A stretch of 14,720 nucleotides of DNA from Chloroflexota bacterium (lineage in GTDB: Bacteria > Chloroflexota > Anaerolineae > Fen-1058). The position numbers and the translations under genes are program-made. The DNA lies in contig JACRBO010000640.1 of the NCBI GenBank assembly GCA_016219235.1, positions 1-14,720 on the forward strand. Direction: 5' to 3'. The notes under the pieces were generated by a model, which was not told the origin of the DNA, ran no database searches, and saw only the letters and a list, made by a program, of their open reading frames with translations. Positions 1 through 14,720 of the stretch are shown here, piece after piece; the stretch's first letter is position 1, and the number at the start of each line of letters is the position of its first letter.

Positions 1-4040
<4,040 letters not shown>

Positions 4041-4051
4041 CGCTCGTCCCC

Positions 4052-4070
4052 TTGTGTGAATACTACACAA
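4052..4070 (-). promoter_or_regulatory. Dyad (operator candidate) next to the gltB ribosome binding site
   Basis: TTGTGT-GAATACT-ACACAA is a 19-bp dyad with 6-bp perfect arms. It ends just upstream of the gltB start and overlaps the ribosome binding site AAGGGGA (4047-4053). Size, symmetry and place fit a repressor operator, of the TTGTG-N-CACAA sort seen for several regulator families. The regulator is unknown. It could also act as a weak mRNA hairpin near the start codon. Confidence 0.4.
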
Positions 4071-4220
4071 AGTTTATGACGAGCCTCACTATTTGTCGCC
4101 CCCTTACCAGGCCATTTGCCGCTTACCCCGATCGGGTCATGGCAAACCCCTATTTTTCTCGTGCGAAAACGCACATTCAGCAGATTGACTAAGCGTGCCA
4201 GGGTGTAACTGGTCAGGTTG

Positions 4221-4263
4221 AATGAAAGAGAGTCCGCATGGCAAGTGCGAACTCTCTTTCATT
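4221..4263 (-). terminator. Hairpin downstream of amtB
   Basis: The 18-nt arms 4221-4238 (AATGAAAGAGAGTCCGCA) and 4246-4263 pair with one mismatch around a 7-nt loop, about 41 nt past the amtB stop and before the gltB promoter region. No T run follows on the minus strand, so it may act as a 3'-end stabiliser rather than a classical intrinsic terminator. Confidence 0.6.
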
Positions 4264-4304
4264 ACAACACCACCCCACACCCATCCTCACACAGCGCGGC
4301 GCGA

Positions 4305-5924
4305 CTACTTGCCGGCTGCGACACCCGCACGAATTGGCGCGGACTTCGCCGTCTTGCGCGAATAGATCACGGCATCCGGTCCTGGTTCGAAATCTTTCGG
4401 ATAACCGAGCGCGCCCATCTCCGGCATATCCAGCCCTTCCAGTTCCACCTCGCGCGAGACTCGCAGCAGTTTGAGCGCGTCCAGCACTTTGAAGAACACG
4501 TAAGACAGGCCAACCACCGTCACCGCAATCGCGCCCGCTTCAGCCACCTGCGCCAGGAACTGCGACGCATTGCCATACAACAGGCCCGTCACCGGCGTCG
4601 CTACGCCATTCCACGCGGCGGTATCGGGGTTGCCATTGGCGAAGATGCCGACGGCCAACACGCCCCACAGACCATTCGCAAAGTGGACGGGCACGGCGCC
4701 AACAGGGTCGTCGATCTTGAGTTTCTCCAAGATCACCGACGCGACACACACCCAGACCCCGGCCACCAGACCGATGACCACGGCCGCCGTGGTATCGACA
4801 AAGGCGCAGGGCGCGGTGATGGCGACCAGACCGGCCAGGACGCCGTTGACACTCATCGACGGATCGGGCTTCTTTGTCGCGCCGCGCAGCCACATATACA
4901 TCATCGCCGAGACGCCGCCCGCCGCGCCGGCCATCAACGTATTGATAGCGGCGAGCACCGCCAGATTGCGGAATGCCCCGGTGAAGCCCAGCGCCGATCC
5001 CGGATTGAAGCCGAACCAGCCAAAGAACAGAATGATCGTGCCCAGGATACCCATCGGGATGTTGTGGGCCGGAATGGTGTTGGCTGATCCATCTTTGTTG
5101 AATCGACCAATCCGCGGTCCGATCACGATCGCGCCGGCCAGACCGACCGCGCCGCCGATCATGTGCACCACGCCTGATCCGGCGAAGTCGACCGCGCCGT
5201 TGCCCAGCCCGGCCGATCGGCCCAGGTTAGCCAGCCAACCGCCGCCCCAGACCCAGTTGCCGACGATCGGATAAATGAACATGCTGACCCACATGCCCAT
5301 GAGCGCGAAGCCCACGAACTTCAGGCGTTCGGCCATGGAGCCGGTGGGGATCGTCGCGGCGGTGTCCATGAAGACCATCTGGAACATGAAGAAGGTGAGC
5401 ACACCGAAGTTCGCGCCCAGGCCGCCGAGCATAAAGCCCGTCAGACCGGCTACACCTGAACCGCCGATGAGCAGCGGCTGCGTCAGCGATCCACTCCAGT
5501 TGCCCAGCGTCACAGGCGAAAAGGCCCATTCGGGGTTGGCCCCGATGGCCGGATACGTGTAGTTGACGCCGCCGAATTGCAGCGCGAAACCCGTCAGCCA
5601 GTAGCCGACCGCGCCGATACAGAACACCATCATGTTCATCATCATGGTGTGCACCACGTTCTTGTTGCGCGTGAAGCCGGTCTCCACCAGCGCAAAGCCC
5701 GCCTGCATGAAGAAGACCAGGAAGCCGGCGATCAACACCCACATCACATTCAGGCTGGTGGCGGTATCACTGGCCGTGTCGGCCACGGCCTGCACATCCG
5801 GGGGCTGCTCGCCCTGCGCCAGCGCCGTGCCTGCCGCGCTGAAGGCCAGCATCAGCACGATGGCCGCAATGATCAGCCAGCGTGCCGATCGGATCACATC
5901 ATAAATCGTCGAATGAGTTTTCAT
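4305..5924 (-). CDS. amtB: Ammonium transporter, Amt family
   Basis: This membrane channel takes up ammonium for assimilation by the glutamine synthetase / glutamate synthase route. The protein is 539 aa. A cleavable signal peptide (hydrophobic stretch ending Ala-Leu-Ala near residue 37) is followed by an acidic linker and the Amt core of about 11 membrane segments. The signature FMQAGFALVETGF is present, and the paired pore histidines lie in SGVVHMIGG (about 254) and PVHFANGLWG (about 414). There is a cytoplasmic tail of about 40 residues. I chose the ATG at 5924 because GGAGG (5933-5937) is 8 nt away; the ATG at 5930 would leave only 2 nt. It starts 24 nt after the stop of the upstream transporter on the same strand, so the two are very probably one operon. 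No PII (glnK) gene is seen next to it, although such pairing is common. Confidence 0.95.
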   Translation of the reverse strand: MKTHSTIYDVIRSARWLIIAAIVLMLAFSAAGTALAQGEQPPDVQAVADTASDTATSLNVMWVLIAGFLVFFMQAGFALVETGFTRNKNVVHTMMMNMMVFCIGAVGYWLTGFALQFGGVNYTYPAIGANPEWAFSPVTLGNWSGSLTQPLLIGGSGVAGLTGFMLGGLGANFGVLTFFMFQMVFMDTAATIPTGSMAERLKFVGFALMGMWVSMFIYPIVGNWVWGGGWLANLGRSAGLGNGAVDFAGSGVVHMIGGAVGLAGAIVIGPRIGRFNKDGSANTIPAHNIPMGILGTIILFFGWFGFNPGSALGFTGAFRNLAVLAAINTLMAGAAGGVSAMMYMWLRGATKKPDPSMSVNGVLAGLVAITAPCAFVDTTAAVVIGLVAGVWVCVASVILEKLKIDDPVGAVPVHFANGLWGVLAVGIFANGNPDTAAWNGVATPVTGLLYGNASQFLAQVAEAGAIAVTVVGLSYVFFKVLDALKLLRVSREVELEGLDMPEMGALGYPKDFEPGPDAVIYSRKTAKSAPIRAGVAAGK

Positions 5925-5948
5925 GTTCATTTCCTCCCTGAATTCCGA

Positions 5949-7253
5949 TTAATACCAACCGATATGGCCCTTCAAAAACACCAGGCCGGTGACCAACAGC
6001 ATGGCAATCAGCGTCGGCAGCGCGGCGATCAACACCCAGCGCTTCCAGCCGATCTTGCCGTGATTGTGCTCCATGTACGAATACGCCACTACGTTGGCCG
6101 ATGCGCCGATCGGGGTGAGATTGCCGCCGATATTCACGCCCAGCGCCAGCGACCAGACCATCAACGCCAGCGCGGGCATGCCTGGGATCGCGGCCAGATC
6201 GCGCAGCACGTAACTCATCGCCAGCGCCAGCGGCACGTTATCCACGATGCCGCTCATCATGCCGGGGCCCCATTGCAGCGCCATCACCAGGCCGCCGGGA
6301 TTCGAGGTGGTCGCGCCGGCCAGGGCTTCGGCCATCATTTCAAACACGCGCGATTTTTCCAGCCCGCCGATCAGCACAAACAACCCGGCGAAAAACAGCA
6401 GGCTCTTCGCATCCACTTTAATCAGCACGCCTTTGCGCTCGATGCGGGGCAGGGCGATCATGGCGATGACAGCCGGCACGAGTGCGGCCGTGGCCGCCGA
6501 GATGTGAATCCCGATCCAGTGCGAGAGCGGCGTGTGCAAGACCAACAACACGACGGCGCTGCCAAACCCGATCAGGCCGATGCGCGACATCTGCGCGTGC
6601 AGCGGATCGTGAACCAAACCTTCGATGTCGCGGATCATCTTCGGGGTCAAGGCCGTGTGTGCATTACGCAGCGACTTGCGGTTGATGAGGTAAAACACGA
6701 CGGTGAGCGTGATGGCGGCCAGCGCCGAGATGGGGCCGGTGTGCTGCGCGAAGTCGCCGAAGTTGAAGCCCAGCGTCGTGCCCAGAATCACGTTGGGCGG
6801 ATCGCCGACCAGTGTGGCCGAGCCGCCCGTATTGGCCGCGCACACCTGCGCGATGATGAACGGCACCGGATCGATCTTGAGCAGGCGGCACAGTTGCAGC
6901 GTCAGCGCCGACAGGAACAACATGACCGTGATGCTGTCCATGAACATCGCCAGCACGGCGGCCAGCAGCAGCAACACCACAAACAGATACGCGGGATGGT
7001 AGTTGACTTTGCGCACGGCCGTCATCGCCAGCCAGCGGAAGAACCCCGCCTCCTGCAAGATCGACACCAGCACGAACATGCCCGCCAGCAAGCCCAGCGT
7101 TTCCCAGTTGATGTACGTCAGCGCTTCAAGGGGGGTGAGGACACCGAACACAATCAGCAGGCCGCCGCCGATCATCGCCACCCAGTGGCGCGGAAACTTC
7201 TCACTGGCAATGAGCACGTACGCGAGTGTGAATACGATCAGTGCGATAAACAT
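5949..7253 (-). CDS. ArsB/NhaD-type (SLC13 / CitMHS superfamily) membrane transporter
   Basis: A 434-aa polytopic membrane protein with about 11-12 hydrophobic segments. Two half-repeats typical of the ion transporter superfamily are visible: the first with ANTGGSATLVGDPPN, the second with SGIVDNVPLALAM followed by GVNIGGNLTPIGASANVV. These re-entrant Asn/Gly/Pro-rich motifs are characteristic of the ArsB, NhaD, CitMHS and P-protein (OCA2) groups. Substrate is not readable from sequence; Na+/H+ exchange, an oxyanion or a carboxylate are all possible. The start at 7253 has GGAGG at 7260-7264 (6 nt spacing) and begins with a membrane segment. The longer in-frame ATG at 7361 would translate the leader hairpins and is rejected. 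Pairing with amtB suggests a role linked to ammonium uptake or ion balance, which is inference. Confidence 0.88.
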   Translation of the reverse strand: MFIALIVFTLAYVLIASEKFPRHWVAMIGGGLLIVFGVLTPLEALTYINWETLGLLAGMFVLVSILQEAGFFRWLAMTAVRKVNYHPAYLFVVLLLLAAVLAMFMDSITVMLFLSALTLQLCRLLKIDPVPFIIAQVCAANTGGSATLVGDPPNVILGTTLGFNFGDFAQHTGPISALAAITLTVVFYLINRKSLRNAHTALTPKMIRDIEGLVHDPLHAQMSRIGLIGFGSAVVLLVLHTPLSHWIGIHISAATAALVPAVIAMIALPRIERKGVLIKVDAKSLLFFAGLFVLIGGLEKSRVFEMMAEALAGATTSNPGGLVMALQWGPGMMSGIVDNVPLALAMSYVLRDLAAIPGMPALALMVWSLALGVNIGGNLTPIGASANVVAYSYMEHNHGKIGWKRWVLIAALPTLIAMLLVTGLVFLKGHIGWY

Positions 7254-7373
7254 GAGCCGCCTCCGAAACGCAAAGATGCCCCCGGCACTTGCATGCCGGG
7301 GGCATCCTGGCCCCACCCTCCCTCTGGAGGATACTTCTTCAGTTGTTGCCCAACAATTCAATCCCCTGTCACG
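7254..7373 (-). promoter_or_regulatory. Structured 5' leader of the transporter-amtB operon
   Basis: Between the predicted start of transcription and the start codon lie three hairpins. They are 7343-7356 (TTGTT-GCCC-AACAA), 7317-7330 (CCTCC-CTCT-GGAGG) and a strong one at 7275-7306 with 13-bp perfect arms (GATGCCCCCGGCA) and a 6-nt loop. In the RNA, CCTCC (7326-7330) can pair either with GGAGG of its own hairpin (7317-7321) or with the ribosome binding site GGAGG (7260-7264), so it can work as an anti-SD. No known riboswitch class was recognised. The 7275-7306 hairpin is followed in the RNA by TTTGCGTTT, too weak a T tract to call a terminator with confidence. Confidence 0.5.
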
Positions 7374-7379
7374 CTGGCA

Positions 7380-7408
7380 ACTATATCAAACTTGCGCGGG
7401 TGCATCAA
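7380..7408 (-). promoter_or_regulatory. Sigma70-like promoter for transporter-amtB
   Basis: On the minus strand TTGATG (7408-7403) and TATAGT (7385-7380) are separated by exactly 17 nt, giving a start near 7373 and a leader of about 120 nt. A short dyad AACCC-CCAAAT-GGGTT (7407-7422) overlaps the -35 box and could be an operator. Confidence 0.6.
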
Positions 7409-7457
7409 CCCCCAAATGGGTTATTCTTTATTTGCTCACTTTGGAGGATGTGCGTGG

Positions 7458-7487
7458 TTGACCCGTACACACATTCTCGGCTATACT
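7458..7487 (+). promoter_or_regulatory. Sigma70-like promoter for the methyltransferase-endonuclease gene
   Basis: TTGACC (7458-7463) and TATACT (7482-7487) with an 18-nt spacer give a start near 7494 and a leader of about 85 nt. It diverges from the transporter promoter, with about 50 nt between the two -35 boxes, so the pair may influence each other. No controller (C-protein) gene or box was seen. Confidence 0.6.
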
Positions 7488-7579
7488 TGCGGCAGTCTGA
7501 CTGACACGCCAACCTGTAGACACATGCTTCGATTGCGGGTAACACATATCATTGAGCGATCTAACAAGAGGGACATGGC

Positions 7580-9742
7580 TTGAAGGACTTTGCCCGACCA
7601 GTTCCGCAGTCTTCACTGAACATTGAAGAAAAAACCAGAGCAAATCTCTTCGCCTGGCGGGGCCAGTTCTCGCCTCAACTCGTCGAAGCACTCTTGACTG
7701 CGTATTGTCCTGCCGACGCGGTGGTGCTGGATCCCTTTGCCGGAAGCGGGACGGTTCTATATGAAGCGGCCGCCATGTCCTTAGAAGCCCATGGTTTTGA
7801 GATTAATCCTTCTGCCTGGAGCTTCAGCAAGCTATATGAATTTGCCAATCTGCGACCTCACGCGCGTGACGTTTTTATCACAGAATTGCGCCGCAAAATC
7901 GAAGAGGAATTTCCGATTGCCATTTTCTCGGACGAAGAGTTGCCTGATGCAGTCGTTGAAGACAAGGTTATCCGGCTTGGGCAGAGCATTTCTGATGACG
8001 CGAAGATTCTCTTCAATGCGCTGATTATCATGCTGGATATTTACAATCACCGCATATCCAGCCACTATGTGCACAGCCGGCTCACGGCTTTGATTGATCT
8101 GATTCGCCGCTTGCCATACTCTTCAAAATCCATCATGGCGGATTTACAGGATGCCAGGGCGATGGCGCTGGCTAATCAATCGATCGATTTTGTGATGACT
8201 TCGCCGCCCTACATCAATGTGTTCAACTATCACCAGAATTACCGGCGATCGGTCGAAGTGCTCGGCTGGGATCCGTTGCGTATTGCCCGCTCTGAAATCG
8301 GGGCGAACCGCGCCAATCGTAGCAACCGGTTTTACACGGTGGTTCAGTATTGTATCGATATGGCGGCCGTACTTCAAGAACTGGCCAGAGTTCTCAAGTT
8401 CGGCGGGCGGGCGGTCTTTATCGTCGGCTATGAGTCTACGGTGTTAGGCGTGCCTTTCTATAATGCCGATCTGGTCGAGAAAATCGCGTTGCAATCAGGC
8501 GCATTCGATATTGCCCTGCGCCAGCAACGCCTCTATACCAATCGTTTCGGCGAGATGATTCGCGAGGACGTTCTTAACTTCTGTCGCAACTTTTGCGCGA
8601 GTCCCCCGACGCCGTCGATTGAGATTGGCCGGAGTGTCGCGCGAGAAGCCCTGTTGAGGGCCGAACGTGCCGCGCCCGACCATAACGGCGCCTTGCTTCG
8701 AGAGGCCATCGCGCGCGTTGATACGCTCGGGGGGACCCCGGTGTTGAACAGCGTCCGCTATACCGACTATCAAACCAGAGAACACGTGATGATGGTGAAA
8801 GAGAAAAAGGACAGCCCCATGATCAGTGACAATCCAAAGTTGCCCACGCCGCACCTCGACAAATTGACTGCCCTACTGGAAAACCCAAGGCTGCCGGCTG
8901 ACGATACCCCTCGGGTGAAAGAAGCGCTTCAACGCTACCGTGACTGGATCAAGGAGCTTGAGTCCGTAAAGGCCGGGCAGAAGGCTACCGTTCAACGGCT
9001 CGTAGAGGCCACTAATCGGTATAAAATGTTTGTGGAACTCGATCTAATCTTCGACAGCCCAGGGGATTTTCTTTACAGGCAAAAAGGCCAACTGAAGTTG
9101 GACAACACCATCCTTGAAGAGTTCCTGCCGCAACTCCTCTATCGCGGGCTGGCTCTGGCTGATACTACATTTGAATTCGGTCCGCGAAAAACTTTTGCAG
9201 GCTTGAGTTTCGGTTCATCGCTAACCAATACAGGAACGGGCGGAATGCCTGTCTTGAGAACGAAGGATCAAGACTTTGTCCTGGGCAAGCGACTTTACAT
9301 GATGACTTCGTTCCACAAGGACTTTCAGGAAGCCGAACGAGTGGAAGCGCATCTCGGCTATGTGTGCGTAGAGTGCAAAACGAATCTCGATAAAACGATG
9401 TTTCAGGAGGCGGTGGCCACAAGCCGGGATTTGAAGATAGCGATCCCTTCTTCATTGTACTTCCTGATATGTGAGTTTCTGGACATGACCCCCGTTTCAA
9501 TCACCCCAACGCACATTGATGACGTTCTAATCGTCAGGAAGGCCAAACGGCTGTCGTCAAACGTGCGACAAGAATACAGAAGCGCCAAAGAGCGGCAGGC
9601 ACATCGGAAAGAATTTGTAGACTTCCTCGAGTCTGCAAAATACTACGCCGATGTTTTTCAGCGGATGATCGACAAGATTCAACAGCTCATTGATGACCAG
9701 GCACCCGAGTTGGCCTTCGTGTTAAAGCGAGGCCATTTTTGA
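7580..9742 (+). CDS. DNA methyltransferase fused to a Bpu10I-like restriction endonuclease
   Basis: A 720-aa single-chain restriction-modification protein. The N-terminal part (about 1-405) is an amino-methyltransferase: motif X-like RGQFSPQLVEALL (27-39), SAM-binding motif I DPFAGSGT (51-58) and catalytic TSPPY (207-211), the form typical of N4-cytosine or N6-adenine enzymes. The order X-I-IV excludes the beta arrangement. The C-terminal part (about 414-720) matches the Bpu10I endonuclease family as I remember it: TKDQDFVLGK (561-570), then VECKTNLDKTMFQEA (597-611) with the PD-(D/E)XK pair Glu598/Lys600, and FLDMTP (633-638). The start is TTG at 7580 with GAGGG 7 nt upstream. G+C is lower than in the flanking housekeeping genes, which fits acquisition. 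Internal Met414 (8819) has AAAAAGGA upstream, so a free endonuclease could also be made. The recognition site is not predictable; Bpu10I itself cuts CCTNAGC. Confidence 0.87.
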   Translation: MKDFARPVPQSSLNIEEKTRANLFAWRGQFSPQLVEALLTAYCPADAVVLDPFAGSGTVLYEAAAMSLEAHGFEINPSAWSFSKLYEFANLRPHARDVFITELRRKIEEEFPIAIFSDEELPDAVVEDKVIRLGQSISDDAKILFNALIIMLDIYNHRISSHYVHSRLTALIDLIRRLPYSSKSIMADLQDARAMALANQSIDFVMTSPPYINVFNYHQNYRRSVEVLGWDPLRIARSEIGANRANRSNRFYTVVQYCIDMAAVLQELARVLKFGGRAVFIVGYESTVLGVPFYNADLVEKIALQSGAFDIALRQQRLYTNRFGEMIREDVLNFCRNFCASPPTPSIEIGRSVAREALLRAERAAPDHNGALLREAIARVDTLGGTPVLNSVRYTDYQTREHVMMVKEKKDSPMISDNPKLPTPHLDKLTALLENPRLPADDTPRVKEALQRYRDWIKELESVKAGQKATVQRLVEATNRYKMFVELDLIFDSPGDFLYRQKGQLKLDNTILEEFLPQLLYRGLALADTTFEFGPRKTFAGLSFGSSLTNTGTGGMPVLRTKDQDFVLGKRLYMMTSFHKDFQEAERVEAHLGYVCVECKTNLDKTMFQEAVATSRDLKIAIPSSLYFLICEFLDMTPVSITPTHIDDVLIVRKAKRLSSNVRQEYRSAKERQAHRKEFVDFLESAKYYADVFQRMIDKIQQLIDDQAPELAFVLKRGHF

Positions 9743-9854
9743 GTTCTTCATCCCAAAGCACGGCCCCAACAACCATGAAGCCCCTATTTCCCTTTGCACC
9801 TGTTTCGTGCTATAACGTCGCTGAGATAAAGTCGCGTTGCATACCGATCGCCAT

Positions 9855-10110
9855 GCGTTACATTGAGTCTGCTTCAACTGAAGCACAACCTTTGCAACAT
9901 GAAGCACAGCCAGTGTAACGCGAAGCAGAGTCGTTGTAACTTGAAGCAGACCCATTGCAACGCGAAGCAGAGTCGTTGCAACGTGAAGCAAAGCCGTTGT
10001 AACGTGAAGCAGGGTCAATGTAACGTGAAGCAAAGCCATTGTAATGTGAAGCAGAGTCAGTGCAACGCGAAGCAGCATCACTGTGATGCGAAGCAGGCGC
10101 AACGCAATAA
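9855..10110 (+). repeat. 21-bp tandem repeat array, 11 direct units headed by one inverted unit
   Basis: Units begin with GAAGCA at 9880, 9901, 9922, 9943, 9964, 9985, 10006, 10027, 10048, 10069 and 10090 with an exact 21-nt period. A typical unit is GAAGCA-GAGTCGTTG-TAACGT. The last unit is degenerate. The complement of 9855-9875 is itself a full unit, separated from the first direct unit by AACT, so the array opens with a head-to-head pair that can form TGCTTC-AACT-GAAGCA. There are no spacers, so it is not CRISPR. Since 21 is a multiple of 3, open frames on both strands are expected by default. Confidence 0.93.
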
Positions 10111-10114
10111 TTAA
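9863..10114 (+). CDS. Possible small Cys-repeat protein encoded by the array (doubtful)
   Basis: The plus-strand frame across the array gives an 83-aa protein of heptads Lys-Gln-Ser-x-Cys-Asn-Val/Ala. Across ten units Cys is invariant but uses TGT and TGC about equally. Gln switches CAG/CAA, Ser AGT/AGC and Asn AAC/AAT, while the other plus frames contain stops in most units. This wobble pattern is what protein-level constraint would produce. Against a real gene: the only start is TTG inside the inverted unit, there is no ribosome binding site, and the frame has a stop shortly upstream (9827). I keep it as a candidate only. Confidence 0.22.
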   Translation: MSLLQLKHNLCNMKHSQCNAKQSRCNLKQTHCNAKQSRCNVKQSRCNVKQGQCNVKQSHCNVKQSQCNAKQHHCDAKQAQRNN

Positions 10115-10164
10115 AAATATAGATGTCGTATAAATCGGTCGGCGGGAATTCCCGCCGACCGATT
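10106..10164 (+). promoter_or_regulatory. Possible promoter followed by a perfect 32-bp palindrome
   Basis: An AT-rich stretch contains TATAAA (10129-10134) as a -10 candidate; the -35 region (AATAAT, 10106-10111) is poor. Immediately after lies AATCGGTCGGCGGGAA (10133-10148) joined directly to its exact complement (10149-10164): 16-bp arms, no spacer. It would cover the start of transcription of the gene at 10260, so it may be an operator, a 5' mRNA hairpin, or a dispersed palindromic repeat. Confidence 0.5.
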
Positions 10165-10186
10165 GGTTTATCCCTCTCGTTTTCAG

Positions 10187-10234
10187 CAACCGCAAGGTTG
10201 ACGGCCACCGCCGGCTTGCAGCCTTACGCGGTTG
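10187..10234 (+). promoter_or_regulatory. Leader with two mutually exclusive stems before the gene at 10260
   Basis: CAACC (10187-10191) can close a tight hairpin with GGTTG (10196-10200) on a GCAA tetraloop, or CAACCGC (10187-10193) can pair with GCGGTTG (10228-10234). The alternatives exclude each other and end about 14 nt before the ribosome binding site. Switching is inference only. Confidence 0.3.
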
Positions 10235-10259
10235 ACTATCTTGTTCTGGAGGATGTGCC

Positions 10260-10973
10260 ATGCCTACCCGTCCCAAAGATGATCGAGCCACCCTGGTCGC
10301 CTTCGCCGAGAAGGTGATCACCAACGGTCAGAAAGTGCCTGAAATCAAGGCGGCAATGACCGAATATGGCTATACCACGGCCAAATACACCGCAGCACGC
10401 GGACTGCTGACAACGACCAAAGAAGGTCTGACCACCCAGGCTCTGGATCAGGGCGGACAGCGCGTGGCCACCGGCGATGAGCAAACCGCAAAAGAAGACG
10501 CCTTCGCTGCCTATCAAGGCGTGGCGAAGATCGGCAAGAAGGTATTAAGCCCGGCTGAACTGGCCCAGTTAGGACTGCCGAGTCGCCAACCGCGCAAGAC
10601 AGCGGACTTCATCACCACAGCGTACACCGTGTTCGACAATCTGTTGGAGACCGAGGCATTAGCCGACTTCGGCTACACATCTGAGAAGATCGCCGCCGAG
10701 CGCGCCAAGATCGAAGCCTACGAACAAGCCGATCTGGCACAGGCGGAGGCCATCGGCGCGAAGGAACAGGGCACTCAGGATTTGGAAGCCACCTTCGTCG
10801 AGTTGAATACGTGGGTGACGACCTATGTGCGTGTGGCGAAAGTGGCGCTGGCCAAGAAGCCGCAATTGCTGGAGAAGCTGGGCATCAAGGTGCGCAGCAG
10901 CAAGACGGCGGCGCAGCGGGCCGCGCCTAAGAAGGCGGCGGCGACGAAGGCCGCGAAGAAAGCCGTGAAGTAG
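10260..10973 (+). CDS. Unrecognised protein: duplicated helical domain with a histone-H1-like Lys/Ala tail
   Basis: A 237-aa soluble protein I cannot name. Two diverged copies of one unit of about 95 residues are visible. The first (about 11-108) contains EIKAAMTEYGYTTAKYTAAR and later AKIGKKVLSPAELAQLGL. The second (about 117-210) contains TEALADFGYTSEKIAAERAK and later AKVALAKKPQLLEKLGI. Both are rich in Ala, Glu, Lys and Gln and should be helical, perhaps coiled-coil. Residues 211-237 are almost only Lys, Ala, Arg, Thr and Pro, like the tails of bacterial histone-H1-like proteins, which suggests binding to DNA or RNA. The start at 10260 has GGAGG 7 nt upstream. A strong hairpin follows the stop. 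It sits directly after the 21-bp array and the 32-bp palindrome, a link worth testing. There is no signal peptide or membrane segment. Confidence 0.85.
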   Translation: MPTRPKDDRATLVAFAEKVITNGQKVPEIKAAMTEYGYTTAKYTAARGLLTTTKEGLTTQALDQGGQRVATGDEQTAKEDAFAAYQGVAKIGKKVLSPAELAQLGLPSRQPRKTADFITTAYTVFDNLLETEALADFGYTSEKIAAERAKIEAYEQADLAQAEAIGAKEQGTQDLEATFVELNTWVTTYVRVAKVALAKKPQLLEKLGIKVRSSKTAAQRAAPKKAAATKAAKKAVK

Positions 10974-10985
10974 AAGCGAAGTTTG

Positions 10986-11019
10986 ATGAGAAGGCTTCTC
11001 GTCAGAGAAGCCTTCTCAT
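10986..11019 (+). terminator. Strong hairpin after the duplicated-domain gene
   Basis: ATGAGAAGGCTTCTC (10986-11000) pairs perfectly with 11005-11019 around the loop GTCA: 15-bp arms, 12 nt after the stop. It is followed by TGCGAAAAG, not by a T run, so it may be a factor-dependent end or a 3' stabiliser. Confidence 0.65.
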
Positions 11020-11075
11020 TGCGAAAAGTTATACGTCGCGTTCGGCATTATTCTGGAAACTGGAAGGTTGTTCCA

Positions 11076-12091
11076 ATGAATCTTAGTGACCTGTTGCAGA
11101 ACAAGAAAATTGATCCTCGCCATGTTCTAGTGCTTCGTCATCGTCCCCAGGAGCCTCAACTCAACAAAGTCTTGCCGTGGCTGGCCGCGGAACAACCGGA
11201 TTTGTTCAATGCTTACCAGCAAACCCAGCAGGGAAACAAACTTGAGCGAGTTATGCAGGTCATGACGGGTGTTGGCTATGTCGCATCATTTATCGGTCAC
11301 GAAGCTGGTAAGGCGCTGTTCGTTGGTCTGTATTCCATAAGCGGGTCGAAACCACTCACTTAGGAGTTGTAAAAGAATAACTTCCGATTTTGAGGCTCAA
11401 GGCGGATGACAATCCGCCGTCTCCAGCCGCTGGATTGTCATCCAGCGGGAGCCGAAAAGTGCGGAGTTGTTTCTTTACAGGTACTTACGATGAATACTGG
11501 GCTATCCCGGCCAATTCCGAATTAAAAAAGTACGGTATGGCAGGCTTCACCGGCGAAAAACGATCCTCGCTTCTTTGGTTTGACCTGGCACAGACTGATT
11601 TCCACAAAGACTGGAAAGGCAAACTAATCGTGAGTTGGCCGCCGCCTGAACGGTCTTGGTGGCGGCGGGCACACAGACCCGCCAATGAGATGTCCATTCT
11701 TGCTATTCTCGAAGATACTGCTTTCGAGCGCGCTACACCGGAATGGGATGCCGTCAACCTGACATGGGATGAACTGCGCATTCTGCCAACGCGCCTGAAA
11801 AATGCGCTCTTGCACACGCGTGGCGTTTACTACATCTTCGATACTTCTGACGGGAAAGGCTACGTGGGTTCCGCGTACGGCAAAGATAACTTGCTTGGCC
11901 GATGGCTAAACTATGCGGTTAGCGGAGATGGTGGAAACCGCTTGCTTCGACAACGTGATCCTCATCAATTCAGATTCACTATCTTGCAACGAGTCTCGCC
12001 AGACATGGAAGACAAAGACCTGATTCGACTCGAAAATTCTTGGAAGCAACGGCTGCACACACGTAAGCCAGATGGTCTCAACGACAATTAG
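11076..12091 (+). pseudogene. GIY-YIG nuclease family gene split by a 120-bp inverted-repeat element
   Basis: The ATG at 11076 (AAGG 8 nt upstream) opens a 95-codon frame (MNLSDLLQ to SGSKPLT) that hits TAG at 11361 inside an inserted element. The frame resumes after it at TAC 11486 (YDEYWAIPANSELKKYGM) and runs to 12091. Removing 11363-11487 (element plus one copy of ACTTA) joins Pro-Leu-Thr to Tyr-Asp-Glu in frame and gives 296 aa. The restored protein has a conserved N-terminal region (HVLVLRHRP, LPWLAAEQPDLFNAYQQTQ), a middle region with SWPPPERSWWRR, and a C-terminal GIY-YIG domain with GVYYIF (208-213), YVG (221-223), Arg234 and Glu278 as expected catalytic residues. Everything except the insertion looks intact, so the disruption is recent. 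The downstream part has a TTG at 11390 but no good ribosome binding site. Confidence 0.88.
11363..11482. mobile_element. Miniature inverted-repeat element with 5-bp target duplication
   Basis: The 120-bp non-coding element is flanked by the direct repeat ACTTA (11358-11362 and 11483-11487). The ends are imperfect inverted repeats over about 32 nt (left TTGTAAAAGAATAACTTCC, right the complement of GCGGAGTTGTTTCTTTACAG). The centre is a three-way fold: outer stem GGCTC/GAGCC (11394-11398 / 11449-11453) enclosing GGCGGAT-GACA-ATCCGCC (11401-11418) and CCGCTGGAT-TGTC-ATCCAGCGG (11427-11448). GGAGTTGT also occurs at 11363 and 11463, exactly 100 bp apart. It has no room for a transposase, so it would need one in trans. 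The target duplication is supported by restoration of the host frame on removal. Confidence 0.82.
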
Positions 12092-12127
12092 CCGGGCTAC
12101 CGATCACTTCAACCGGTCAAATCTTCA

Positions 12128-12167
12128 AATCAACGCGTGGTCTGTAATGTAGTCCGCGCGTTTTGAT
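12128..12167 (+). terminator. Probable terminator of the GIY-YIG locus
   Basis: AATCAACGCGTGGTC pairs imperfectly with GTCCGCGCGTTTTGATT around about 8 nt, with TTTTGATT at the 3' side, about 37 nt after the stop at 12091. Its core resembles the terminator at 13248-13280. Confidence 0.55.
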
Positions 12168-12175
12168 TGCGGTTC

Positions 12176-12227
12176 AGCCCCGAATGAATTCGGGGGCTGA
12201 TAATTCAAGTCGGCTTCAAGCCGACTT
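12176..12227. repeat. Two adjacent short palindromes
   Basis: The first, 12176-12198, is AGCCCCGAAT-GA-ATTCGGGGGCT with a one-base bulge. The second, 12207-12227, is AAGTCGGCTT-C-AAGCCGACTT with perfect 10-bp arms. They lie in the gap between the GIY-YIG locus and the next gene and look like dispersed intergenic palindromes (REP-like). No function is apparent. Confidence 0.75.
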
Positions 12228-12305
12228 CTGATACCAGCGTGCGAACACATGGGGTGCAGTGCTCCCGTTCATTCGCAGCAATTGACCTCAGCAGGCCGGT
12301 GGCTG

Positions 12306-12314
12306 TGATACAAT
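12306..12314 (+). promoter_or_regulatory. Extended -10 promoter for the gene at 12333
   Basis: TG-A-TACAAT (12306-12314) is an extended -10 box. TTGACC further upstream is too far (about 21 nt) to be an ideal -35. Transcription would start near 12321, giving a very short leader that just includes the ribosome binding site AGGAGG. Confidence 0.4.
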
Positions 12315-12332
12315 TTGAGCGAGGAGGCCGTC

Positions 12333-12683
12333 ATGGGCGAAATAGTGTTGCACGAACCATTAGCTTCACAACTGAGGCACGAGGCCGAGGCCGAGGGTCT
12401 GCCGGTCGAGCATTTGATCGAAGCTGCGCTGCGGCAGTATCGCTTTCAGGCGCAGCGCAAGAAATTGACGGCTGAGGCCGCCTGGTGGCAGAGCGTCGGG
12501 CCGGAGATGCAGGCCCAGTTTACAGGTGAATTTGTGGCGGTCCATCAACGCGCCGTGATCGATCACGATGGCGATGAAACCGCACTGCGCCAACGCGTGC
12601 GCGCCCGTTTCCCCAAAACCGCCGTGCTGATTGCTCCCGCTCAGGGTCGGCGCGAACTGCGAATGATCAGCAGTATGCTATAA
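12333..12683 (+). CDS. Small DUF5678-like protein with an N-terminal helical (RHH-like) segment
   Basis: A 116-aa protein. The N-terminal 45 residues (HEPLASQLRHEAEAEGLPVEHLIEAALRQY, in pieces) resemble the ribbon-helix-helix / antitoxin-like start found in many small regulators. The C-terminal part, with FVAVHQRAVIDHDGDETALRQRV and then FPKTAVLIAP, resembles the DUF5678 pattern (valine-rich strands around a VxxHDxD turn). The start at 12333 has AGGAGG 6 nt upstream; the in-frame TTG at 12315 would put that site inside the gene. Its stop overlaps the -10 box of the next gene. The role is unknown; an antitoxin or regulator is an inference from layout. Confidence 0.7.
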   Translation: MGEIVLHEPLASQLRHEAEAEGLPVEHLIEAALRQYRFQAQRKKLTAEAAWWQSVGPEMQAQFTGEFVAVHQRAVIDHDGDETALRQRVRARFPKTAVLIAPAQGRRELRMISSML

Positions 12684-12684
12684 T
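12676..12684 (+). promoter_or_regulatory. Extended -10 promoter overlapping the stop of the preceding gene
   Basis: TG-C-TATAAT (12676-12684) is a consensus extended -10 box whose TAA is also the stop codon of the gene before. No good -35 is seen. Start near 12691, leader about 25 nt, serving the pair at 12716 and 12993. Confidence 0.6.
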
Positions 12685-12715
12685 CTTTTTGACCCAGTCG
12701 ACCGGTGGATCATCA

Positions 12716-13000
12716 ATGCCTGAACCTCTGCCTGAAATTATCTGGACCGATTACCTCAAATATCGTGCCGGGTTGCGGGGCTTTGAGCTGGCTCAGATTG
12801 AGCAGATTGTGAAGTATTCGAGCGAACGCTACTTCGATACTGAAACTCGGCGGTTGGTTATCATTGGGCGTGTGGCAGAAGCGCTCGTGCTGGTGCCGTG
12901 TGATCTGACTCCGTCCTCCATTACGCCGGTAACGATTCATGTCACGACACGCCAGCAGATCAGTTTTCGGCTCAAGGCCGGGAGATTTACCCATGAATAA
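12716..13000 (+). CDS. Small DUF4258-like protein, possible toxin of a pair
   Basis: A 94-aa protein with a pattern I associate with DUF4258-like / RelE-like folds. A helix (FELAQIEQIVKYSSERYFD) is followed by strands (RRLVIIGR, EALVLVPCDL, ITPVTIHVTTRQQISFRLKAGRF) ending in a charged tail. HVTTRQQISFRLK has the Thr-Arg-Gln-Gln run typical of this group as I remember it. The start at 12716 has GGTGG 7 nt upstream; the TTG at 12689 falls at the expected transcription start. Its stop overlaps the next start by 8 nt (ATGAATAA), so translation is likely coupled. Toxin activity is inference from the pairing. Confidence 0.65.
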   Translation: MPEPLPEIIWTDYLKYRAGLRGFELAQIEQIVKYSSERYFDTETRRLVIIGRVAEALVLVPCDLTPSSITPVTIHVTTRQQISFRLKAGRFTHE

Positions 13001-13226
13001 ACCGCACATGCTGTACTTTGCTCAAGATGATGTGTTACACCTGGCAATTTCGGACGAGTCTGAAGCTGGCAGCGTTGAATTGGCCCCGAACATCACCGTG
13101 GAGTTGAATGACAAAGGCGAGATGATCGGTGTTGAGATTCTGGATGCCAGCCGCTTCATCCGCGATTCGATCATGGAATCGGTGCAGGCCAGAATGCTGC
13201 GCGTGCCACAAGATCAGTCGGCATGA
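12993..13226 (+). CDS. DUF2283 family protein, possible antitoxin of the pair
   Basis: A 77-aa acidic protein with the DUF2283 pattern: an early strand (MLYFAQDDVLHLAIS), then SVELAPNITVELNDKGEMIGVEILDAS, where the asp/asn-rich turn and the GVEILDAS strand are the family hallmark. The start at 12993 lies inside the end of the upstream gene, with GGGAG 8 nt before it; the in-frame ATG at 12939 would create a long overlap and lacks a site. DUF2283 proteins often follow DUF4258 genes, which is the order seen here. Confidence 0.8.
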   Translation: MNKPHMLYFAQDDVLHLAISDESEAGSVELAPNITVELNDKGEMIGVEILDASRFIRDSIMESVQARMLRVPQDQSA

Positions 13227-13247
13227 CTCGCTAAACGCCTGACAATC

Positions 13248-13280
13248 ACACGCGGACTGCTTATCACAGTCCGCGTGTTT
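13248..13280 (+). terminator. Intrinsic terminator after the DUF2283 gene
   Basis: ACACGCGGACTG (13248-13259) pairs perfectly with 13267-13278 around a 7-nt loop and is followed by TTCATTTGATT. It lies between converging genes and could also slow transcription leaving carB, though on that strand there is no T run. Confidence 0.85.
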
Positions 13281-13316
13281 CATTTGATTCAACCTCGCGC
13301 ATCAAGCCTTACCGCC

Positions 13317-14720
13317 TCAATCAGTCCGGCCAAAATGCACTTGCAAACTCCTCACCTTCAAATCCTTCGCCTTCAACGCCGTGATGCCATTCACCGCCGC
13401 GGCCGCCGCGCTCAACGTCGTCAACAGCGGCACGTTGTGCATCACCGCCGCGCCGCGCATGATCTGCGTGTCGTCGTGCGCGCCCGCACCCAGCGGCGTG
13501 TTGATGATCAACTGCAACTCGCCGCGCTCGATCATGTCCTTGATATTGGGGCGGCCTTCGCTCACCCGATTGACCTTCGTTACCGGCAGGCCCGCGCGCG
13601 AGAGCCATTCGGCGGTTCCCTTCGTCGCGCAGAGATCGAAGCCCAGTCGATGCAGATCGCGCGCGATCTTCAAGGCCGCACCTTTGTCGAAGTCATTCAC
13701 GGTGATCAACACCAATCCCGATTGAGGCAGCGGCGTCCCCGCGGCGATCTGCGCCTTGGCAAACGCGTGACCGAAGCGTGACGCATGCCCCATCACTTCG
13801 CCAGTCGATCGCATCTCTGGCCCCAGACGAACCATCGCGCCGGGGAACTTCTTGAAGGGCAAGACTACTTCCTTCACGAAGAAACCATCCACTGCGGGCG
13901 TTTCACTGAAATTCAACTCGGTCAAACTCTTGCCGGCCATTACCTGCGCCGCGAGTTTCGCAACCGACACGCCCGTCGCCTTGCTCACAAATGGCACAGT
14001 GCGCGAGGCGCGCGGATTCACTTCCAGCACGTACACCACATCGTCTTTGATGGCGTATTGCACGTTCATCAAGCCTTTCACGCCCAGCGCCAGTCCCAAT
14101 CGCTCCGTGTAATCTTGAATGATATTCAAGTGATACTGGCTGATTTTGTACGGCGGCAGTACGCACGCGCTATCGCCGGAATGCACACCCGCTTCTTCGA
14201 TGTGTTGCATCACGCCCGCGATCACAATCCGTTCGCCATCGCCGATCGCGTCCACGTCGATCTCGAAGGCGTCTTCCAGATAGTGATCGATCAGCACCGG
14301 CCCGTCAGGTGAAGCCGCCGCCGCTTCGGCCAGAAACTGCGCCAACGACACATCGTCGTAGGCGATCTCCATCGCGCGCCCCCCCAGCACATACGAGGGC
14401 CGCACCAGCACCGGATAGCCGAGGCGCTGCGCCACGCGCCTGGCCGCGTCAAACGATTGCGCCGTGCCCCATTCGGGATGCGGAATATCCAGATCGCGCA
14501 GCAGCTGCCCGAAGCGCACGCGGTCTTCGGCCAGATCGATCGAGTCCGGCGCCGTGCCCCAGATCGGCGCGCCCGCTTCGGCCAATCCGCGCGTCAGGTT
14601 GATGGGCGTCTGCCCGCCGAACTGCACGATCACACCTTCCGGTTGTTCTTCGTCGATGATGTTCAACACATCTTCGTGCGTGAGCGGCTCGAAGTACAAT
14701 CGATCGGCGGTGTCGTAGTC
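13317..14720 (-). CDS. carB: Carbamoyl-phosphate synthase large subunit, C-terminal part (5' end outside window)
   Basis: CarB builds carbamoyl phosphate from bicarbonate, ammonia (passed from the CarA glutaminase) and 2 ATP, for pyrimidines and arginine. The frame is open from 14720 to the TGA at 13317: 467 codons, roughly residues 606-1073 of an E. coli-length protein. Visible first is the second ATP-grasp half: VIVQFGGQTPINL, VLVRPSYVLGGRAMEI, FEIDVDAIGDG, VLPPYKIS, and MNVQYAIKDD leading to LEVNPRASRTVPFVSKATG. The C-terminal MGS-like allosteric domain follows, with CATKGTAEWLSRAG and LIINTPLGAGAHDDTQIMRGAA. No missing residues were noticed. It converges on the toxin-antitoxin-like pair. 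Confidence 0.97.
   Translation of the reverse strand, partial: DYDTADRLYFEPLTHEDVLNIIDEEQPEGVIVQFGGQTPINLTRGLAEAGAPIWGTAPDSIDLAEDRVRFGQLLRDLDIPHPEWGTAQSFDAARRVAQRLGYPVLVRPSYVLGGRAMEIAYDDVSLAQFLAEAAAASPDGPVLIDHYLEDAFEIDVDAIGDGERIVIAGVMQHIEEAGVHSGDSACVLPPYKISQYHLNIIQDYTERLGLALGVKGLMNVQYAIKDDVVYVLEVNPRASRTVPFVSKATGVSVAKLAAQVMAGKSLTELNFSETPAVDGFFVKEVVLPFKKFPGAMVRLGPEMRSTGEVMGHASRFGHAFAKAQIAAGTPLPQSGLVLITVNDFDKGAALKIARDLHRLGFDLCATKGTAEWLSRAGLPVTKVNRVSEGRPNIKDMIERGELQLIINTPLGAGAHDDTQIMRGAAVMHNVPLLTTLSAAAAAVNGITALKAKDLKVRSLQVHFGRTD

Follow-up and report, generated by a model that had tools for sequence, protein, structure and literature searches.

What is the insertion of about 120 bp that splits a gene of the GIY-YIG nuclease family in a Chloroflexota bacterium of the class Anaerolineae, and what is its strongly folded interior? 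The window, the whole stretch of DNA analyzed, comprises 14,720 nucleotides (contig JACRBO010000640.1, positions 1 to 14,720). A preliminary description had proposed a non-autonomous miniature element of a single undescribed family. The insertion is most probably a MITE with ISAzo13-family ends and a REPIN-like interior from a RAYT-linked repeat family, inserted by an ISAzo13-type transposase at TTA. The locus is arranged as follows.

11076-11363, plus strand: GIY-YIG nuclease family gene, 5' part, ending at a TAG (11361-11363) made by the junction
11360-11362, no strand: target duplication TTA, left copy (preliminarily ACTTA, 11358-11362)
11363-11484, plus strand: composite miniature element, 122 bp, G...C ended
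11368-11391, plus strand: left terminal arm, 24 nt identical to both IS ends in L088 and L089 (genome G002)
11395-11452, plus strand: REPIN-like core GCTC-hairpin-spacer-hairpin-GAGC, 58 nt
11401-11418, plus strand: core hairpin 1, 7-bp stem, loop GACA
11427-11448, plus strand: core hairpin 2, 9-bp stem, loop TGTC
11456-11479, minus strand: right terminal arm, a diverged copy of the left arm
11485-11487, no strand: target duplication TTA, right copy
11488-12091, plus strand: GIY-YIG gene, 3' part, entered by an open frame with a TTG start (11390) inside the element

The pentanucleotide ACTTA stands on both sides of the element (11358-11362 and 11483-11487). Removal of 125 bp yields a single open frame of 296 aa, in which the two gene halves are joined in frame. 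The read-through protein had 2608 protein matches at E<=0.001. One of the best 120 matches was the window's own fragment, and the closest homologue among these 120 was 82% identical over the full length. All other aligned proteins were uninterrupted at the junction (9/9), and none of the nine carried the same insert at this place. Homologues without insert and the in-frame join thus bear out the insertion that had been read from the frame. The left junction creates the TAG stop that splits the gene. Neither half contains a stop or a frameshift, so the insertion looks recent, in agreement with the earlier view.

The element is short (122 bp), non-coding and bounded by inverted repeats. These are imperfect, as had been described: the arms at 11368-11422 and 11425-11479 are 71% complementary over 55 nt. 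A pattern derived from the arms matched only its two source places, as follows from its construction, and gave no match in 200 shuffles. When mismatches were penalized heavily in a strict arm test, the element's own arms reached only p=0.04. The element strand folds far better than shuffled sequences, with z-scores of -5.6 as DNA and -7.1 as RNA. The core lies 3 nt inside each arm. The centre had been described as folding into two hairpins with mutually complementary loops. The two hairpins were recovered; the complementary loops GACA and TGTC are explained by the hairpins being inverted copies of a single REP-like unit.

A target duplication of 5 bp, as proposed from the two ACTTA copies, was set aside for one of 3 bp. 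Over 22 related copies, a count excluding L091 and L094 (contig ends) and L314, L323, L326, L329 and L330, a register of 3 bp fitted best (15/22), followed by 4 bp (12/22) and 5 bp (8/22). The 3-bp duplication was TWA in most of these copies. Judged by its relatives, the duplication in the window is probably the 3-bp TTA, and the further agreement at the C and A of ACTTA would be due to target preference or chance.

Relatives of the element were found in the order Thermoflexales. G001, a Thermoflexales (Chloroflexota) genome with the locus L006 (JAUQXD010000336.1), encodes a transporter 96% identical to that of the window. Element matches at E<=0.01 occurred in all five genomes searched of the order (G001-G005). 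A near full-length relative resides at another site in G003 (L097, 82%, query positions 2-125). The remaining matches comprised mostly the core (query positions ~34-95) without the ends of the window element, and some in G002 the ends only. G002 and G003 contain several copies with ends like those of the window element, called A-type below. In G002, the end sequence is present as inverted pairs 1.1-1.5 kb apart at three loci (L088, L089, L090). The transposase profile scan covered L090, whose frame between the ends encodes an ISAzo13-family transposase (PF07592, E 3e-105). The frames of L088 and L089 are visibly similar to it, that of L089 containing stretches of N. A 24-nt sequence, TGTAAAAGAATAACTTCCGATTTT, comes first inside the ends on both sides of L088 and L089 and recurs unchanged in the left arm of the window element, while the ends of L090 show slight differences. 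By this end identity, the element is an ISAzo13-family derivative: its 24-nt ends are those of L088 and L089, and the transposase is known from L090. Further copies and a transposase between like ends, both of which the preliminary description had suggested searching for, are thus present in relatives, and its view of a non-autonomous element with inverted ends and a short duplication holds. The element resembles ISAzo13-family ISs and MITEs made of IS ends in the 24-nt ends, the PF07592 transposase between such ends in G002 and the TWA duplications; it differs in having no transposase and a REPIN-like core as interior. Searches outside these relatives gave no match in genome contigs with the strict arm pattern and none in plasmids in a distant search at E<=1. 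In viral contigs, two end patterns had no matches, and two others hit five loci, which were discarded; their surroundings bear no relation to the element.

The core is a repeat in its own right. Of 22 cores found, 18 were aligned, L081, L074, L045 and L044 (indels, truncated) being excluded before the pair count. The 18 cores have the order GCTC, 7-bp hairpin, spacer, 9-bp hairpin, GAGC in common, and 96.9% of their base-pair cells are paired, compared with 29-53% in slid controls. Cells changed on both sides numbered 11, versus 4.0 in shuffles, all of them in two pairs; neither the doubly changed pairs (2) nor the further pair types (6) were more numerous than in shuffles. The covariation support for the core consists of two stem positions and the slid control. 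The arrangement of two inverted REP hairpins with an outer tag is that of a REPIN; the tag GCTC places the core outside the canonical REP classes (GTAG/GTGG or CGTC). Paired loops of other copies read CACA/TGTG, AACA/TGTT and CCTA/TAGG; loops tend to be complementary because both hairpins are inverted copies of one unit. A covariance model (R1) detected the core in 37/298 genomes of the class at E<=1e-4, a lower bound with 18 candidates scored per genome. A sample from across the phylum gave 2/400 genomes at 1e-5, one being G001; with 13 candidates scored per genome, this is even more of a lower bound. One locus (L210; G085:C23, 54-510) contains four cores as two pairs, each spaced 97 bp, with a RAYT gene ~10 kb away on the same contig. 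Another core (L044; G001:C351:557-608) appears by eye to lie in frame within a coding sequence. Rickettsia palindromic elements also lie in frame inside coding sequences.

The flanks were inspected for 98 cores, distinct places from 92 sources that were picked by R1 score and are skewed to G001-G005 and a few other genomes. Inverted flanking arms beat all 200 shuffles in 22 cores and reached p<0.05 in 33; in the other 65/98 the arms were not significant (p>=0.05). Measured against mismatched flanks, 32/98 cores reached the 95th percentile, with ~5 expected. Sorted by eye, the arms form several sequence families: A TGTAAAAGAATAACTT, which includes the window element, B GTATAACGCAAAA and C TATACTGCGCGC; further D and E (TAGAGCGAATTCC, TAGAGCAAATTGC), perhaps one family, F ACTCAGTAGATCC and G GACAATGTCACATT. 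B ends gave 67+74 matches in G002 versus 2+1 for the control. C ends gave 20 in G002 versus 8 and hardly exceeded the control in G003-G005. No owner IS of the B and C arms was recognized among the matches listed.

In family B, 20 regions (19 from G002, one from G004) were picked from more than 100 listed end matches, both ends being listed, and all 20 contain a paired element of 88-152 bp. A strict count found at least one tagged hairpin in 16/20 and both tags in 6/20. In 25 B copies, these 20 and five more, a 9-bp duplication was exact in 10/25 and had at most one mismatch in 18/25, while 10 bp was exact in only 2. B elements with otherwise like arms carry either two hairpins or one. Those with one hairpin are as expected from a deletion between two REPs, an event mentioned for P. 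fluorescens (PMC3116915). In family A, 17 further regions (L314-L330) were read, namely the remaining end places in G002 and G003 together with L328, a region with a previously identified core; the set excludes six places with 3 mismatches (G003, four; G004 and G005, one apiece). Paired ends were present in 14/17, and 13 of these 14 contain a hairpin with a tag on one or both sides, on both in three cases. Random 80-nt stretches have a tagged hairpin on at least one side in 17/5000 cases and on both sides in 4/3000. The A-type MITEs L091-L094 are near-identical and coreless. They contain different filler, and a core-free carrier with a clean gap was not found. In the A-type composite L098 (G003:C451), the first hairpin is opened, by eye, by a larger palindromic insert, so that palindromes are nested. 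A single undescribed family, as first proposed, was rejected on these distributions: the ends are ISAzo13-type, and the centre belongs to a separate, wider repeat that is also found where these ends are missing, inside different ends and next to RAYT genes.

The link to RAYT genes is confined to a subfamily. Y1_Tnp genes (PF01797) as a whole are not associated with the core, being found in 17/20 core-positive versus 15/20 core-negative genomes. Among 20 Y1 loci from core-positive genomes, cores lie near the gene in three (L244, L252, L260), and the proteins of these three form one subfamily, 46-60% identical to the first. They scored 92.7, 85.4 and 79.6 bits with the NCBIfam model REP_Tyr_transpos (NF047646, cut-off 80). 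The name RAYT is not specific, because the G002 RAYT scores 79.6 and a Y1 protein without cores 74.7. Homologues of the subfamily were detected in 45/298 genomes of the class at E<=1e-12 with one core-linked protein as query. When 30 RAYT loci were ordered by similarity, matches to the core model lay ~350 bp or less from the gene in 8 of the 12 closest and in 0 of the next 18. These eight loci are L264, L265, L266, L271, L272, L273, L274 and L275; L271, L272 and L275 are weak (E 1e-3 to 5e-3), and L264, L265 and L273 are the three discovery loci again. Direct reading of the flanks revealed GCTC-hairpin-hairpin-GAGC beside L265, L266, L267, L268, L270, L273 and L274, with stems and loops varying by genome. 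A scan of all 256 tetranucleotides as outer tags in the 12 closest loci ranked GCTC first with 14 matches (5/12 loci; runner-up 5). The same tag had one match in the 18 farther RAYT loci, none in 43 other Y1 loci, some of which overlap, and none in shuffles. Like a REPIN, the core thus has a candidate cognate RAYT gene flanked by like repeats (8/12 loci by the model, 5/12 by the strict scan, and a 25-mer in G002). At the subfamily locus L271 (G160), the RAYT gene is flanked by hairpin pairs with another outer sequence, CTTGCGCC/GGCGCAAG, which suggests that the subfamily's tag is open to change.

RAYT and core also co-occur across genomes. With RAYT homologues counted at 1e-28, the core was present in 12/26 genomes with and 25/272 without the gene (Fisher p 6.6e-6); at 1e-12, the figures were 14/45 and 23/253 (p 2e-4), kinship being ignored in both tests. 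A subfamily RAYT was missing from 25/37 core-positive genomes at 1e-28 and from 23 at 1e-12, including G001, G003 and G005, with genome completeness unstated. The closest sequence link was found in G002. A 25-nt REP, GCTCCGGCTGGATGGTACATCCAGC, is located directly upstream of the RAYT gene and has seven exact copies in the genome. Five of the other six are within the A-type elements L316, L319, L320, L321 and L324, and the sixth, L339, has a right arm only. The arms of these five elements differ from the IS end by 2-3 mismatches over 18 nt. GCTCCGGCTGGATGGTACATCCAGC was absent from the other four genomes of the order, even with two mismatches allowed. In G002, at most two mismatches yielded 36 copies (control 0), of which 21 are one variant, GCTCCTGCTGGATGGCACATCCAGC; the copies of this variant within fetched loci were all in B-type elements (11/11).

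The known kinds represented are the ISAzo13 MITE, the REPIN and the RAYT. The repeats share several features with REPINs and BIMEs: two inverted REP hairpins with outer tags, each hairpin preceded on its 5' side by a tetranucleotide; linkage to an HUH/Y1 RAYT gene that has the same repeats on its flanks; tandem arrays; and internal deletion to a single palindrome (PMC3116915, PMC8266576). As described there, the tag is GTAG/GTGG; here it is GCTC, the hosts are Anaerolineae, and the core often lies between inverted repeats, one family of which represents the ends of a DDE transposon. REP dimers midway in longer palindromes have been described for A. variabilis (GTAG-15) and H. neapolitanus (CGTC-1), and the REP of T. 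roseum, from the Chloroflexi, is GTAG-tagged; GCTC does not occur in the main text of that study (PMC3733652). Those palindromes share with the present elements the REP dimer in the middle. In the account given there they are not tied to a transposon, whereas here several arm families exist and one is tied to ISAzo13-type ends.

By its sequence signatures, the RAYT resembles group 5, or TnpA-Y1 subclass 2.6. A tyrosine motif of the YIH[QN]NP type, an SS motif and repeats beside the gene without GT[AG]G are in common (PMC6006769). The spacing between HuH and Y, with a median of 82 in that description, is 78 here. The HuH motif NH[LIV]H reads NHIH, NHIH and NHWH, the last in G002, and the W motif WQ is WE, if VWE is that motif; the HuH of G002 and WE thus deviate. 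Subclass 2.6 is described as mostly from Bacteroidetes, with 'atypical secondary structures' (PMC6006769). In the open-licence literature, no GCTC tag class, no REPIN family assigned to Anaerolineae and no recurrent REPIN-in-MITE build for which the transposon owner is identified were found.

Under the preferred reading, the interior would be a pair of GCTC-tagged REP hairpins in inverted orientation, from a repeat family linked to a RAYT subfamily (TnpA-REP, HUH/Y1) in Anaerolineae. We infer that an ISAzo13-type transposase, whose gene probably lies elsewhere in the genome, excised the element by its arms and moved the copy in the window in trans. The element would then have been inserted into the GIY-YIG gene at TTA, with duplication of ~3 bp. 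The core would be, or would have been, a REPIN that is mobilized in single-stranded form by its RAYT. A RAYT may have inserted it into the MITE where the TIR-TIR hairpin has its tip, an entry point that would account for its position between the arms. Alternatively, the core is an ancestral structural part of the MITE, for instance a three-way junction that aids transposition or damps transcription, and the repeats beside RAYT genes merely resemble it. Core and arms are indeed co-amplified in family B, all 20 regions being paired and 16 having a tagged hairpin, and an empty carrier was not found. Such an origin is nevertheless improbable: the core also occurs without detectable arms, in tandem and beside RAYT genes in several genomes, a 25-nt REP is exactly common to a RAYT flank and to MITEs, and the arm families have unlike sequences and duplications of different length (3 bp versus 9 bp).

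The four A-type MITEs with unrelated filler (L091-L094) would fit an ordinary ISAzo13 MITE in which the hairpins are chance or unselected filler. This is scarcely credible in view of the census (37/298 genomes of the class) and of a core in 13/14 paired A-type copies, compared with 0.3% of random stretches. A structured RNA gene or attenuator, spread by the MITE and selected for its RNA function, is very unlikely. In its favor are a highly stable RNA fold and joint changes at two stem positions. Against it, Rfam contains no match to the element at gathering thresholds, loops vary while stems and tags persist, and several copies are degenerate or reduced to a single hairpin. REPs are known to degenerate or to collapse to a single hairpin.

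MITEs, moved by DDE enzymes as double strands, and REPINs, moved by HUH enzymes as single strands, are usually treated separately. A broader proposal, in which our confidence falls somewhat below even, joins them: in Anaerolineae, the GCTC-tagged REPIN may lodge in several unrelated DDE-transposon MITEs, perhaps via RAYT targeting of the palindrome tip; the chimera would spread either way, and REPIN capture would recurrently give birth to MITE families or amplify them. If true, the chimera has two engines: either a DDE transposase, acting on its outer ends, or a RAYT, acting on its core, can spread it. The recurrent REPIN-in-MITE build could account for REP dimers within long palindromes, an observation of 2013, and provides a test system for REP hitchhiking. 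The finding adds the GCTC tag class and a candidate cognate RAYT subfamily, and the little-understood non-GTAG RAYTs become testable with a defined substrate.

Other features of the window were noted. Upstream of the interrupted GIY-YIG gene, a frame at 7580-9742 (plus strand) encodes a DNA methylase (PF01555) and a complete Bpu10I restriction endonuclease domain (PF09549, E 5e-93), possibly a single-chain restriction-modification enzyme. A glutamate synthase frame on the minus strand includes two in-frame repeat-like stretches (2160-2249 and 2619-2651). The stretch IVGAGLAPAQEGDRKDTPLPQGDREGAPLP covers a 30-bp tandem repeat, and VTRHSSLVTEQ covers a 7-bp tandem repeat; both look like repeat insertions, and they had a single weak match among the fetched loci (L110, E 5e-4). 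A 21-bp tandem array occupies 9863-10114, with ~9.6 copies at 9875-10075 and more than one frame open.
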